In this document: in pieces, positions 56,755-60,919 of the stretch | How positions within the stretch are numbered: the stretch's first letter is position 1 | Layout: every line of letters begins with the position of its first letter | Origin: Martelella lutilitoris | GTDB lineage: Bacteria > Pseudomonadota > Alphaproteobacteria > Rhizobiales > Rhizobiaceae | NCBI RefSeq assembly: GCF_005924265.1 | Contig: NZ_VCLB01000003.1 | Span: 248,001 to 312,000, forward strand | Direction of reading: 5' to 3' | Length of the DNA: 64,000 nt | Notes under the pieces: model-generated | Told to the model about the DNA's origin: nothing | Seen by the model: the letters and a program-made list of their open reading frames with translations, nothing else | The model's database searches: none | Program-made: the position numbers and the translations under genes

Positions 56755-57681
56755 ATGAGCGCTTTAAAGATCGCGATTGTCGGTTACGGCAAGATCGCCG
56801 TTGAAGAGCATCGCCCGGCGATCGACCGAGCCCGTGATTTCGAGCTTGCGGCGATTGTCACCAAAGGCGCCGCGCCTGCCGATCTTCCCGTCTTTTCCGA
56901 TCTTGCCGGCCTTTTCGACAAGGGGCCGGCGGTCGATTGCGTGGCGCTCTGCGTGCCGACGGCCGCGCGCTATGCGCTAGCCGCAGAGGCGCTTGAGGCG
57001 GGCAAGCACGTGCTGCTGGAAAAGCCGCCGGCCGTGACGCTGGAGGAGATCGAGACGCTGCGGCAAAATGCAGCGGCAAAGGGGCTGTCGCTGTTTGCAG
57101 CCTGGCATTCGCGCTTTGCCCCGGGCATTGCCACGGCGCGTGACCTGCTCCTGGATGCCCATATCCGTTCGGTGAGGCTGACCTGGAAGGAAGATGTGCG
57201 CCGCTGGCATCCGGACCAGAGCTGGATCTTCGAGCCGGAAAGCCTCGGCGTCTTCGACATGGGTATCAACGGCCTGTCGCTCGCCTCGGCGGTGCTGCCG
57301 GCCCCCTTCGCCGTGCAGGGCGCGAGGCTCGCATATCCGGAGAACCGAAGGGTGCCGGTGGCGGCCGAGCTCGACATCGCCATGGACGGCTGCGACAATT
57401 TTTCCGCCGCCTTTGACTGGAACCATCAGGGCGCGGACGACAAGGCGCTCGAGGTCGAGACCGACCGGGGCATGCTTCTGCTGGACCGCAGCGGCGAACG
57501 GCTCGCCTTTAACGGCGCCCTGCTTCTCGACAGGCGGCAGCAGGAATATCAGGCCGTCTACAGCCGTTTCGCCGCATTGGTCGGCAGCGGCGAAAGCGAC
57601 GTCGACGCGACCCCGCTCGGTCAAGTCGAAGAGGCGTTCGCGAGAGCCGAGAAAAAGACGACAGAGCCGTTCTTCGGCTGA
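56755..57681 (+). CDS. L-arabinose/D-galactose 1-dehydrogenase-like Gfo/Idh oxidoreductase
   Basis: NAD(P)-dependent dehydrogenase of 308 residues. It starts KIAIVGYGKIAVEEHRPAID and carries VLLEKPPAVTLEE near residue 90, followed by LFAAWHSRFAPGIATARDLL and VRLTWKEDVRRWHPDQSWIFEPESLGVFDMGINGLSL. That last stretch is strongly reminiscent of bacterial L-arabinose 1-dehydrogenase and D-galactose 1-dehydrogenase, which oxidise the sugar to its lactone. The start has GAGGAC upstream; a longer frame from 56704 is not supported. Co-directional with the LysR gene, converging on the Slam-like gene three bases from its stop. Confidence 0.85.
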   Translation: MSALKIAIVGYGKIAVEEHRPAIDRARDFELAAIVTKGAAPADLPVFSDLAGLFDKGPAVDCVALCVPTAARYALAAEALEAGKHVLLEKPPAVTLEEIETLRQNAAAKGLSLFAAWHSRFAPGIATARDLLLDAHIRSVRLTWKEDVRRWHPDQSWIFEPESLGVFDMGINGLSLASAVLPAPFAVQGARLAYPENRRVPVAAELDIAMDGCDNFSAAFDWNHQGADDKALEVETDRGMLLLDRSGERLAFNGALLLDRRQQEYQAVYSRFAALVGSGESDVDATPLGQVEEAFARAEKKTTEPFFG

Positions 57682-57683
57682 GG

Positions 57684-58994
57684 TCAGAACTGCTTGGTGA
57701 CGAACAGCGAGACCGTGCTCTTGTCGTATTCGTAGAGCTCGACATTGGAGAAATTCTTCGAATAGGCATATTCGAGGCGCGGCGCGAAGCCTTTCATCGC
57801 AAGGGTGCGGAAGGTCGCGCCGACGGCAATATCGAGCCTTCGGTCAAGCCGCGATTTCGTCATCAGCGGAAAATCGCCCTCATAATCGCGCAGCGTGCCG
57901 GCGACCTCGATATCGGTCAGAATGCCGCCCGACCATTCGCGGGCATATTTGGCATTGATGTTGTAGCCGTAATAGGAGTTGAAGTCCTTCTCGGCGGAGA
58001 CATAGTTGAACCCGCCGCCCATGCGGATGCTGCTCGACGGCGTCAGCGCATAGCGGTGGTTGATGCTCATGCCGGCCTCATAGCCGTCATAGGCGTCCAT
58101 GTCGTGGTAATCGAGCCACTGGAACGAGAAATTGGCCGACGTGACCCCGAACGGTCCGAAGGAACGGCGCACCGAAAACACCGGCCCGTAGCCGACACGG
58201 TAGGGCTCATTGCCCATCAGCACATATTCCGCTGCCATGCCGCCGCTGAAAATCCAAGGATCATTGCGCCAGGACAGCTGCGAGAACCCGCCGAACTGGG
58301 TCTGGTTATAGGCCTTTTCCTTGTAGGCAAGTCCGGTGACGGAGCCGCCGAAGGTGAGCGACAGGTCGTCGACGAGATCGAATGAGTAGGTGCCGTTGAC
58401 GCCGTAATTGAGGCCGACGCCGCTTTCCGCCCGGGTGCCGGGCGCAAGCGGAATGCCGCCGACATGAACAAGGCTCTGATCCGTGGCGTTGGAAATGTTG
58501 GTGCTCGGCGCAATCGCGAGAAAGCCGCCGAGCGTCCAGGGCCGGTCGATATTAACCCGGTCGATGAAGTCCTCGTAGAAGGAGCGGAGCGATTCGCTCG
58601 GCGCATTGTCGGCGAGAAGCGAGAAGTGATAGATCGCCGCCTTCTTCTCGCCCATCAGCGCCAGCGTATGGGCAAGCTCCTGTCGCACGCGGGAAAAATC
58701 CGGCTTCTTGTCGAGAACGCCGCGCATCAGGATCGCCGCTTCCCTGAAGTGGCCCTCATGCTTGAGGATCAGCGCATAGGTGAATTGCTGGGAAAGCGCG
58801 GAGAGTTCCGGATCAGCCGAAAGCTCAGCCGAAAGCGCCATGGCCTGTTCATACTGGCCGCTCTCGATCAGCACCTTGATCTGCGGAAACGGATTGACGG
58901 CCGCTGCGGCGCTGCCGGCGGCAAGAAGCGCCAGCAGACAGGCAAAAAGCCCACCCGCCAGGCTCAAGCGCAACAAGATCAGAAAACGCCCCAT
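57684..58994 (-). CDS. Slam-like outer-membrane protein (TPR plus DUF560 barrel)
   Basis: Predicted surface lipoprotein assembly modulator. Of 436 residues, a signal peptide covers about 1-30 (ending AAAAV). Residues 35-150 are helical repeats of TPR type (IESGQYEQAMALSAEL, GHFREAAILMRGVLDKKPDFSRVRQELAHTLALMGEKKAAIYHFSLL). From about 160 alternating beta strands form a barrel ending in SVLFVTKQF-like VSLFVTKQF with terminal phenylalanine. This two-part architecture matches Slam proteins that export TbpB-type lipoproteins. GGGAA lies before ATG 58994; TTG 59012 is an alternative. The lipoprotein gene upstream is the likely client. Confidence 0.78.
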   Translation of the reverse strand: MGRFLILLRLSLAGGLFACLLALLAAGSAAAAVNPFPQIKVLIESGQYEQAMALSAELSADPELSALSQQFTYALILKHEGHFREAAILMRGVLDKKPDFSRVRQELAHTLALMGEKKAAIYHFSLLADNAPSESLRSFYEDFIDRVNIDRPWTLGGFLAIAPSTNISNATDQSLVHVGGIPLAPGTRAESGVGLNYGVNGTYSFDLVDDLSLTFGGSVTGLAYKEKAYNQTQFGGFSQLSWRNDPWIFSGGMAAEYVLMGNEPYRVGYGPVFSVRRSFGPFGVTSANFSFQWLDYHDMDAYDGYEAGMSINHRYALTPSSSIRMGGGFNYVSAEKDFNSYYGYNINAKYAREWSGGILTDIEVAGTLRDYEGDFPLMTKSRLDRRLDIAVGATFRTLAMKGFAPRLEYAYSKNFSNVELYEYDKSTVSLFVTKQF

Positions 58995-59031
58995 GAAATT
59001 CCCGGAACTCAAAACACGATACCGAAGGTGA

Positions 59032-59054
59032 CGGGCCGGCAGAAAGCCGGCCCG
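59032..59054 (-). terminator. Perfect 9-bp hairpin between lipoprotein and Slam-like genes
   Basis: CGGGCCGGC (59032-59040) and GCCGGCCCG (59046-59054) with an AGAAA loop, 26 bases after the lipoprotein stop. No T-run on the minus strand. It would reduce expression of the exporter relative to its client. Confidence 0.65.
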
Positions 59055-59079
59055 CCGCTATGCGCAAAGGCGCTGAAAC

Positions 59080-59892
59080 TCAGTTCCGTTCGCCGACAAA
59101 CGTTCCGACCATGCCGGCCCCGGCATCGGCCCGCGCGCCGTTGACCTGGTAGGTTCCGGCAATGCCGGCGGCGCGATTGCCGTAAAACGCGCCGTTGACG
59201 CGGGAATTGGCCTGATCGACGTTGAGATAGTCATTGCCGACGGCGATCGAATTGGCATTGGAGTTGAACTCCGAGCCGGCGATCGTCGCCTGGAAGGTGA
59301 CGTCGCCCACCTGTGTGTCCATCGCACCGGCCAGCTGTCCGCTGCCGAAGTCCACATTGGCGTTGAACGAGCCGTCGATATAGTCGAGATACTCGCCCGG
59401 AAGCGCCGCCGCGCCGAGATGTTGGCCGGAATAGGTCGCACGTCCGCTGAGCGGCATGTTGCCGGGCGCGGTCACGCCATCGGTTGCCCGGAAGGCCATT
59501 CCCACCACATTGTCATCCCAGGTGTCGGCATCGATGAAGGCCACGACCGGACCGTCCTTGATCCCGTCAACGCCGAAATAGCCGAGCCGCATATAGGCTT
59601 CCGCGCCATCGCCGAGATTGGCCGTGTAGCCATCGCCGTCGGGATAGAAGAGCGCCGTTTCGCCTGCGTCGGGACCGCCGGTGATCTCGACGCCGACCGT
59701 GCCGTCGCCATTCATCTGGATATTGGCCGACGCCGATCCCGAACCCCTTACGGCTTCGTTCCAGGTGTCGAAATCCGAATAATAACCGAGCGCGTTCGGC
59801 GCGAGCGGCCCCCCGCCGCCTCCGCCGCCGCTGCAGCCGGCGAGGGCAATAAGCGCAATTGTCCCCATCAGCGCCGTCATCGATGATTTCAT
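59080..59892 (-). CDS. Surface-type lipoprotein with TbpB-like beta-barrel domain
   Basis: Lipoprotein of 270 residues. A signal sequence of 19 residues ends in the lipobox LAGC with Cys20, followed by SGGGGGGG, a glycine anchor seen in many transferrin-binding-protein-B-like proteins. The C-terminal half has the handle/barrel pattern: VDFGSGQLAGAMDTQVGDVTFQATI, then SRVNGAFYGNRAAGIAGTYQV and a closing MVGTFVGERN, close to the FxG...A.E.GG.F...G.FGa.R signature of TbpBD domains. GGAGAGGGG lies before ATG. It is co-transcribed with the Slam-like gene. The ligand is unknown; no transferrin-like host protein is implied. Confidence 0.8.
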   Translation of the reverse strand: MKSSMTALMGTIALIALAGCSGGGGGGGPLAPNALGYYSDFDTWNEAVRGSGSASANIQMNGDGTVGVEITGGPDAGETALFYPDGDGYTANLGDGAEAYMRLGYFGVDGIKDGPVVAFIDADTWDDNVVGMAFRATDGVTAPGNMPLSGRATYSGQHLGAAALPGEYLDYIDGSFNANVDFGSGQLAGAMDTQVGDVTFQATIAGSEFNSNANSIAVGNDYLNVDQANSRVNGAFYGNRAAGIAGTYQVNGARADAGAGMVGTFVGERN

Positions 59893-60142
59893 GTCCCCTC
59901 TCCTGTCATGCTCTCTTGCGTTGTTAAGAACTTGTAAACCTTCGCAACGGGGCGCGACGCTGTCAACCGCGTCAATCGCTGAAAGCGAGAGGTTCGGGCG
60001 TGTTTCAACCGAAGCCTCAATCTGTCCGGGAAATGGCGACATGCAGCCGGCATCAAGAAAGAGACGGAACCTGACGATTGTCGCCAACCGACATCGATAG
60101 TAGAAGACGCACTCCGGCCGTCGGATGAAGGAGACCTGATCG

Positions 60143-60919
60143 ATGACCAAAGAGAACGCCATGCCGCTTTTTTACAAGAAGCCACAGGTGCTGCGCTTCG
60201 AAGAGCACAAAGGCCTCGGTCTGGTGGCGAGGAATGACTACGCATTCTCCGCCGAGGCGACGGCGATCCCGCTTTCGGTGAGCGAGTTCATGCCGGCCGT
60301 GCGCCACTATCCGATCGTCTTCATCGAGGCTGCCGGCCAGCCGGCCCCGGTCGCCATTGTCGGCCTCAGGGAAGGCCAGAACCTGATGCTGGAGAAGGAC
60401 GGCAGCTGGGCGCCGCATGCCTATGTGCCCGCCTATATCCGCCGCTATCCCTTCATTCTGGTGCAGTCGCCCGATGAGGATACGCGCTATCTCGCCTATG
60501 ACAGCGAAAGCGGGCGGGTGAAGCCGCTTGCCGAGACCCCCGACGCCGCGCCGATCTTCAACGACGACGGCACGGCGAGCAAGACGGTCGCGCCGATGCT
60601 GGAGCTTTGCGAGGCCTACCACCAGCACCGCGCCCAGGACGCGGCCTTCCTGAAGGCGATCGCCGAGGCCGATATCCTGCTCGCCCGCCATGTGGACATG
60701 GAGTTTCCCGACAAGAGCCGCTACCGGCTCGACGGCTTCAGCGTCATCGACCACGAACGCTACCGCAACCTGCCCGCCCGCACGCTCAAGCAGTGGACGG
60801 AGAAGGGCTGGACGGACGCCATCGCGCTACACCTTGCCTCCGCCCAGAACTGGGGGCTGATGATGGAGCGCAACCGGCTGGTCTCCGCCGGCGACAGGGA
60901 CGCGCGCCTAAGGCATTAG
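60143..60919 (+). CDS. SapC family protein
   Basis: A 258-residue protein of the SapC family, named after an S-layer-associated locus. Features are MPLFYKKPQVLRFEEHKGLGL, AIPLSVSEFMPAVRHYPIVF, APVAIVGLREGQNLML, AYVPAYIRRYPFILV and a late LDGFSVIDHERYRNLP. It has no signal peptide. GAAGGAGA precedes ATG 60143. Divergent from the lipoprotein/Slam pair over 250 bases and overlapping the end of the next convergent gene by 12 bases. In other genomes SapC genes accompany outer-membrane receptors, so a cell-surface role is plausible; biochemical function is unknown to me. Confidence 0.88.
   Translation: MTKENAMPLFYKKPQVLRFEEHKGLGLVARNDYAFSAEATAIPLSVSEFMPAVRHYPIVFIEAAGQPAPVAIVGLREGQNLMLEKDGSWAPHAYVPAYIRRYPFILVQSPDEDTRYLAYDSESGRVKPLAETPDAAPIFNDDGTASKTVAPMLELCEAYHQHRAQDAAFLKAIAEADILLARHVDMEFPDKSRYRLDGFSVIDHERYRNLPARTLKQWTEKGWTDAIALHLASAQNWGLMMERNRLVSAGDRDARLRH

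Follow-up and report, generated by a model that had tools for sequence, protein, structure and literature searches.

A Slam-type exporter and its probable TbpB-fold lipoprotein client in Martelella lutilitoris, with a CtrA-like promoter box shared with a second, unlinked client gene

Slam homologues were reported in 2017 from all proteobacterial clades, 185 of 353 lying beside a lipoprotein gene (PMC5449769). Type 11 secretion (T11SS) was named in 2021 (PMC8406197) and its cargo surveyed in 2025 (PMC12282271). According to that survey, the seven experimentally verified exporters all belong to the animal-associated cluster 1. The Neisseria systems Slam1 and Slam2 (TbpB, LbpB, fHbp, HpuA) combine an exporter composed of a SlipAM barrel and a TPR region with lipobox clients carrying a TbpB-type barrel, and one exporter can serve unlinked clients, as Slam1 does for NmTbpB and NmLbpB (PMC5449769). 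In the haemophilin system HphA-HsmA, a single handle-plus-barrel cargo is encoded beside the Slam. Cluster 3, from marine Rhodobacteraceae and Roseobacteraceae, is alphaproteobacterial; TonB genes are rare nearby, and one conserved locus encodes a lipoprotein of 282-375 aa with a C-terminal barrel (PMC12282271). The main texts of the 2017, 2021 and 2025 papers contain no word beginning with 'rhizob'. No literature was found on Martelella together with 'surface lipoprotein'.

The DNA analysed here is a 64-kb stretch, hereafter the window, of Martelella lutilitoris, a salt-tolerant organism. The window carries the client and exporter genes, both on the minus strand, where an earlier note based on the sequence had located them (Table 1). 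The genus is placed in the Aurantimonadaceae, Hyphomicrobiales, in the NCBI taxonomy, and the closest named relative of the exporter is from Martelella radicis (93% identical). The exporter gene starts at ATG 58994 and encodes 436 aa; an alternative TTG lies at 59012. Its product matches the SlipAM profile PF04575 with E 6.9e-27 over positions 1-288 of 288, has a signal peptide, read by eye from the sequence, and ends in Phe. The Slam-type exporter proposed in the earlier note is thus upheld by the DUF560/Slam profile search that the note had named as a check. The TPR region scores under the cut-offs of both TPR_Slam (25.2 bits, cut-off 35.2) and TPR_19 (21.3 bits, cut-off 25).

Table 1. Features of the client-exporter locus in window coordinates.
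Feature	Position	Strand	Basis
Slam / T11SS outer-membrane exporter gene	57684..58994	-	Full-length SlipAM match, 95.2 bits (cut-off 22)
SlipAM (DUF560) barrel domain, residues 153-436	57687..58538	-	PF04575 match
TPR region, residues 70-128	58611..58787	-	TPR_Slam and TPR_19, both under cut-offs
Intercistronic hairpin, client-exporter gap, no U-run	59030..59056	-	11 pairs; gap z -3.7
Predicted Slam-dependent surface lipoprotein (client), 270 aa	59080..59892	-	TbpB_B_D and slam_lipo profile matches
C-terminal 8-strand barrel, residues 138-270	59083..59481	-	TbpB_B_D match, AlphaFold2 model, structure matches
Handle domain, residues 29-137	59482..59808	-	Predicted strands; aligns with TbpB C-lobe handle
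Poly-Gly tether (S-GGGGGGG), residues 22-28	59809..59829	-	Read from sequence
Lipobox LAGC, predicted lipidation site Cys20, Ser at +2	59833..59844	-	Read from sequence
Shine-Dalgarno AGGAGAGGGG, strong, client gene	59895..59904	-	Read from sequence
CtrA-like box TTTAC-N6-TTAA	59924..59938	-	7/8 positions of TTAA-N7-TTAA
TTGACA, -35-like, 22 nt before box	59961..59966	-	Promoter comparison
Divergent SapC-family gene accompanying the pair	60143..60919	+	PF07277 193 bits

The client gene starts at ATG 59892. Its product scores 48.2 bits with Pfam TbpB_B_D (cut-off 26) and 87.1 bits with NCBIfam NF041636 slam_lipo, entitled 'Slam-dependent surface lipoprotein' (cut-off 80), above the threshold in both cases, and the lipobox residues G19 and C20 are invariant across 20 aligned clients. 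AlphaFold2, run on the window protein aligned with seven clients of related loci (eight sequences in all), returned a model with pLDDT 74.5 and pTM 0.77; from the single sequence the pLDDT was 32. Among solved structures the model fits TbpB C-lobes best (5kkx_B: Z 17.6, 204 residues, 3.8 Å), followed by NHBA (Z 16.4), fHbp (Z near 15) and haemophores (Z near 14), while phmmer against solved structures returned TPR and chance matches only. As modelled, the client is one handle-plus-barrel lobe, residues 29-270, without a separate effector lobe. The lipobox and poly-glycine stretch described in the earlier note are confirmed, and its TbpB-like barrel is upheld by the TbpBD profile as well as by the predicted structure.

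The association of the two genes extends well beyond the window. Among 151 genomes of the same family, own genome included, SlipAM was found at E 0.001 in 22 (21 above cut-off) and slam_lipo at E 0.01 in 16, the own genome alone exceeding the cut-off of the latter family; both occur in 13 genomes (Fisher p 1e-10). A slam_lipo match lies at most 3 kb from SlipAM at 15 of 24 SlipAM places, and at all 15 the client is upstream of the Slam gene on the same strand, G056 having a second client match downstream as well; the order of client then exporter, to which the earlier note had pointed, is thus general at these places. An exporter orthologue (78-100% identical) is present in nine of 13 Martelella genomes, own included, and a client (49-100% identical) adjoins it in every one. 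In these counts, L004 and L082 are the same place, as are L006 and L085, their contigs being equal in length, and each was counted once; L084, in which the client start is not called, does not enter the figures for promoters, hairpins and dN/dS; the client list for related loci was picked by hand.

Both genes are under purifying selection, with dN/dS against the window genes of 0.09-0.41 for the client and 0.08-0.20 for the Slam. Against four distant members, the client exceeds the Slam in dN by a factor of 2.5-3.1 (0.36-0.48 vs 0.14-0.16), whereas against the nearest relative, L080, its dN is slightly lower (0.024 vs 0.034). Within the client, dN of the handle is 0.37-0.55 and that of the barrel 0.30-0.42 in the four distant members, and the two are similar in near ones; since the handle is not clearly faster, there is no strong indication that a ligand site is diversifying.

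Marine cluster 3 Slams seldom adjoin barrel clients, and their function may have shifted (PMC12282271); the TPR domain of the window exporter scores under its Pfam cut-offs, which would agree with a Slam homologue that has another role and a lipoprotein that stays periplasmic. Against a client above its family cut-off, a conserved pairing and order and a full-length barrel profile, such a reading appears highly improbable. The pair is an ordinary member of the widespread Slam/T11SS system. The earlier interpretation stood for the homology of exporter and client, their order, the hairpin between them and the lack of an adjacent TonB receptor; the rarity outside pathogens that it implied did not, as Slam/T11SS is reported across Proteobacteria (PMC5449769, PMC8406197, PMC12282271) and NCBIfam already holds a client family. 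Compared with cluster 3, which is likened to the Martelella locus by description, the six window proteins scanned include no DUF1194 protein, thymidylate synthase or glyoxalase.

Several related loci differ in content. A second Slam (SlamB, 43-44% identical) is encoded in five of the 13 Martelella genomes, the own genome not being among them; a lipoprotein gene lies just upstream of it in L088, L089, L090 and L092, and none is called in L091. The promoters of these four clients have in common a palindromic element, CCCCCC-AAAT/ATTT-GGGGGG, variants of which also precede the clients of L099 and L101. In L088, L090 and L092 the client has as its neighbour a gene for some 550 aa that matches an alpha/beta-hydrolase, the one in L092 having in addition a LuxR-type HTH match under cut-off; this gene is possibly a dedicated regulator. 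In a Beijerinckiaceae MAG (L008:920-3090) two lipoprotein genes stand in tandem before the Slam gene. Locus L005 is Martelella-like (Slam 89%), and the title of its record, Marinicella sp. W31, a gammaproteobacterial name, is probably mistaken; in the LysR and ABC genes of this locus the matches are spread over more than one frame, as frameshifts would produce.

The two window genes are separated by 85 bases, which fold at z -3.7, as judged from 200 shuffles, into the G:C-rich hairpin of Table 1, located 3' of the client stop, so that the hairpin reported in the earlier note is real. No Rfam family reaches its gathering score within 57500-60400. The gap folds at z of -1.5 or lower in eight of the nine pairs examined (+0.5 in L005). 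The hairpin is not a classical terminator since no U-run follows it; it could keep the exporter at a lower expression level than the client, and, as the letters of its arms vary between lineages, it may tune exporter expression. On the other side of the pair, the SapC gene is divergent to the client in nine of ten distinct loci of Martelella type and stays there when the opposite flank changes, L087 being the one without it. A functional link between the SapC gene and the Slam pair is possible.

The structural match to TbpB raises the question of the ligand. TbpB has two lobes, each with handle and barrel, and a TbpA-type TonB receptor partner in its locus. Here the client is one lobe, and no such partner was found among the six window proteins scanned or in the 46 loci searched. 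Binding of transferrin or lactoferrin was rejected on these two grounds, in keeping with the view of the earlier note that host iron proteins are an unlikely ligand. Compared with the Neisseria systems, the Martelella client thus has about 250 residues, one lobe and no effector lobe, no TonB receptor partner was found and no host proteins are expected. The scan of six window proteins brought up no TonB receptor, as the earlier note had stated for the adjacent genes. The genome has two Plug-domain (TonB receptor) genes, at C1:185 kb and C13:147 kb, which match each other at 5e-9; neither had a tblastn match at E ≤1 in the 46 loci, a search that very distant receptors could escape.

With two Plug-domain receptors in the genome and haemophore structures (6om5 and two HphA entries) matching the model at Z about 14, the client might be a haemophore or metal co-receptor passing cargo to one of these receptors encoded elsewhere. 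The mature client, however, has one His (H157), and its 81%-identical orthologue in L005 has none, whereas HphA of Acinetobacter baumannii no longer binds haem when H43 and H106 are changed (PMC8560813); moreover, the receptors are without match in the loci searched. An HphA-type haem site, which takes two haem-binding His, was marked down accordingly, and a haemophore role seems improbable. The Martelella client also differs from HphA-HsmA in having a lipobox and in the lack of both an adjacent TonB receptor and a haem His pair. Since neither a TonB receptor beside the loci nor a two-His haem site was found, nutrient piracy is unlikely.

Charge suggests another role. The mature client has a pI of 4.05 and a net charge of -20, and LbpB is reported to trap cationic peptides with an anionic domain (PMC11022072), so that the client could likewise act as an acidic sponge against cationic peptides or polycations. 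However, a substrate-binding protein of the same window is similarly acidic (pI 4.25, net -27), and acidity is therefore not special to the client. Besides, LbpB uses disordered anionic inserts that are missing from the client model, save for a weak stretch at residues 106-113. An acidic sponge is on these grounds unlikely.

The earlier note did not include a second, unlinked client, the CtrA-like promoter box that both client genes share or the conserved SapC neighbour. The own genome encodes a single Slam, and slam_lipo matches it at two places. The second client lies at C1:428.8 kb, 3' of an FGGY kinase gene, matches TbpB_B_D with 42 bits (cut-off 26) and is 37% identical to the first. An unlinked second client is present in six of 13 Martelella genomes, each time behind the FGGY carbohydrate kinase gene (68-100% identical across the six loci, L093-L097 and L098, which is G000:C1:422500-435500). 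In L087 this kinase (63%) is encoded close to the paired client as well, and the paired and unlinked loci may have a common history.

In the promoter of the paired client, TTGACA and the box are conserved while much of the other sequence differs. The box, TTWAC-N6-TTAA, scores 7 or 8 of 8 positions in eight of nine Martelella pairs (under 7 in L087), and its distance from TTGACA is 22 nt in eight of the nine and 20 in L005. The second client of the own genome has the box TTTACGGGTAGTTAA, with TTGAC 26 nt before it. Among the five other unlinked clients, the box is kept in L093 and degraded in L094; it is absent at that place in L095-L097, which have a different 7/8 match near -100. Because both client genes have the same rare promoter box, the second client is probably exported by the same Slam. 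The box was absent from the promoters of the four SlamB clients examined and, among 17 promoters of clients from other lineages, from all but that of L008, which has a 7/8 match; the control, if real, is therefore specific to Martelella.

In Sinorhizobium meliloti, CtrA has the consensus TAA-N7-TTAAC, and such sites precede ctrA and rcdA (PMC3616915); there CtrA binds the rcdA promoter, rcdA expression being unchanged on depletion (PMC4433202). A TTAA-N7-TTAA motif is described as functional across Alphaproteobacteria (PMC9437464), and the BTLCP protein HvyA of Caulobacter is activated by CtrA (PMC4241560). The client promoters thus have a TTAA-N7-TTAA-type box in common with the CtrA regulons of S. 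meliloti and Caulobacter, the window box being one base off the S. meliloti consensus, and ctrA and rcdA bear the box in Martelella as they do in S. meliloti (PMC3616915, PMC4433202). A link to Slam, DUF560 or T11SS was absent among the matches listed for the CtrA regulon literature.

The pattern TTWAC-N6-TTAA, defined post hoc from the client promoters, occurs at 17 sites in the genome (4.45 Mb), two of them at the client genes, and the window contains three box matches at 7/8 or better. Other sites adjoin ctrA (421 bits, cut-off 350), rcdA (189.7, cut-off 170), repA (533, cut-off 348), pal (139, cut-off 125) and a PdhS-like kinase gene, cut by the locus end, whose 182 bits stay below the cut-off of 2000; the gene of a BTLCP/HvyA-family protease (214 bits) has two. 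At three places sites also lie beside genes of no known link, namely an OmpR-type regulator and an OEP efflux gene, an SH3 protein and a hydroxyacid dehydrogenase, and fumC and a peptidoglycan-binding protein, and five (L124, L125, L129, L134, L136) have no identified family beside them. The script placed 16 of the 17 box sites in intergenic DNA, or 17 when L128, where the ORF was extended past the real start, is counted so, vs 17 of 23 sites of the reversed control pattern. Among control-site neighbours, 21 of 23 were scanned and gave dnaX, S21, gntR-type, Lrp- and IclR-type regulators and pxpA, with dnaX as the only replication gene and none of the cell-cycle genes of the box set. The remaining two, at one control site, are ctrA, the promoter of which is AT-rich, and its neighbour. 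Scans were run at E 1e-10 for the box set and at 1e-45 for controls, those with few or no matches being run at 1e-10 and ten also against Pfam, which left the result unchanged.

Two readings of the box compete. Its neighbours include ctrA, rcdA, repA and an HvyA-family gene, for which reason it is probably a CtrA box; on this comparison of sequences we put the prediction at slightly better than an even chance. Alternatively, the box could be a promoter element inherited from a common ancestor of both client genes and unrelated to CtrA. The genome shows no enrichment of the pattern (19 strand matches vs 24 for the reversed control), TTGACA stands at a near-constant distance from the box and one control site also precedes ctrA, all of which speaks for this origin. 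Against it, the box is found in both clients at only 37% identity, and the neighbours of the 17 sites include ctrA, rcdA, repA, a PdhS-like kinase and a BTLCP gene, none of which appears among the 21 control neighbours scanned. A purely ancestral element remains a serious contender that falls somewhat short of an even chance.

Should the box be a CtrA site, its position would suggest the sign of control: with TTGACA as -35, it overlaps the -10 and start region, and repression fits better than activation. CtrA would most likely bind there at both client genes. Tentatively, and with some doubt, we propose that the cell cycle runs this T11SS, CtrA switching the client-exporter operon and the unlinked client and one Slam showing two lipoproteins; two single-lobe TbpB-fold clients would then be displayed on a defined cell type or at a cycle stage of a free-living alphaproteobacterium, for a purpose other than iron piracy.

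The route of the client would begin with export by Sec, cleavage and lipidation at Cys20, and delivery to the outer membrane by Lol, steps that are general knowledge for lipoproteins. In the periplasm the client would be kept unfolded, a role that Skp has for TbpB; in the reconstituted TbpB pathway, an unfolded client held by a chaperone then passes through Slam (PMC9090332). The Slam barrel would thread it to the outer face, where a one-lobe TbpB fold would sit atop a Gly-rich tether, and the second, unlinked client would probably also be exported by this sole Slam of the genome. There, the client would probably work as an adhesin or surface-binding protein, and not as co-receptor to a TonB transporter. 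Homology predicts the classes of exporter and client, the lipidation and the fold, and translocation, surface exposure and the pairing of the window client with the window Slam are steps that we infer. Overall, a two-gene Slam (type 11 secretion) unit with a surface client very likely accounts for the locus, with shared CtrA-type control as a probable addition.

What is new is the arrangement of one Slam with two unlinked clients, both behind the same rare box. If true, control of a Slam system by CtrA would be new as well. A client-exporter pair in a non-pathogen, for which no TonB partner was found, offers an entry to the roles of surface lipoproteins outside the animal host, and its testable, putative cell-cycle promoter would make it possible to ask if Slam can expose its clients at set times.
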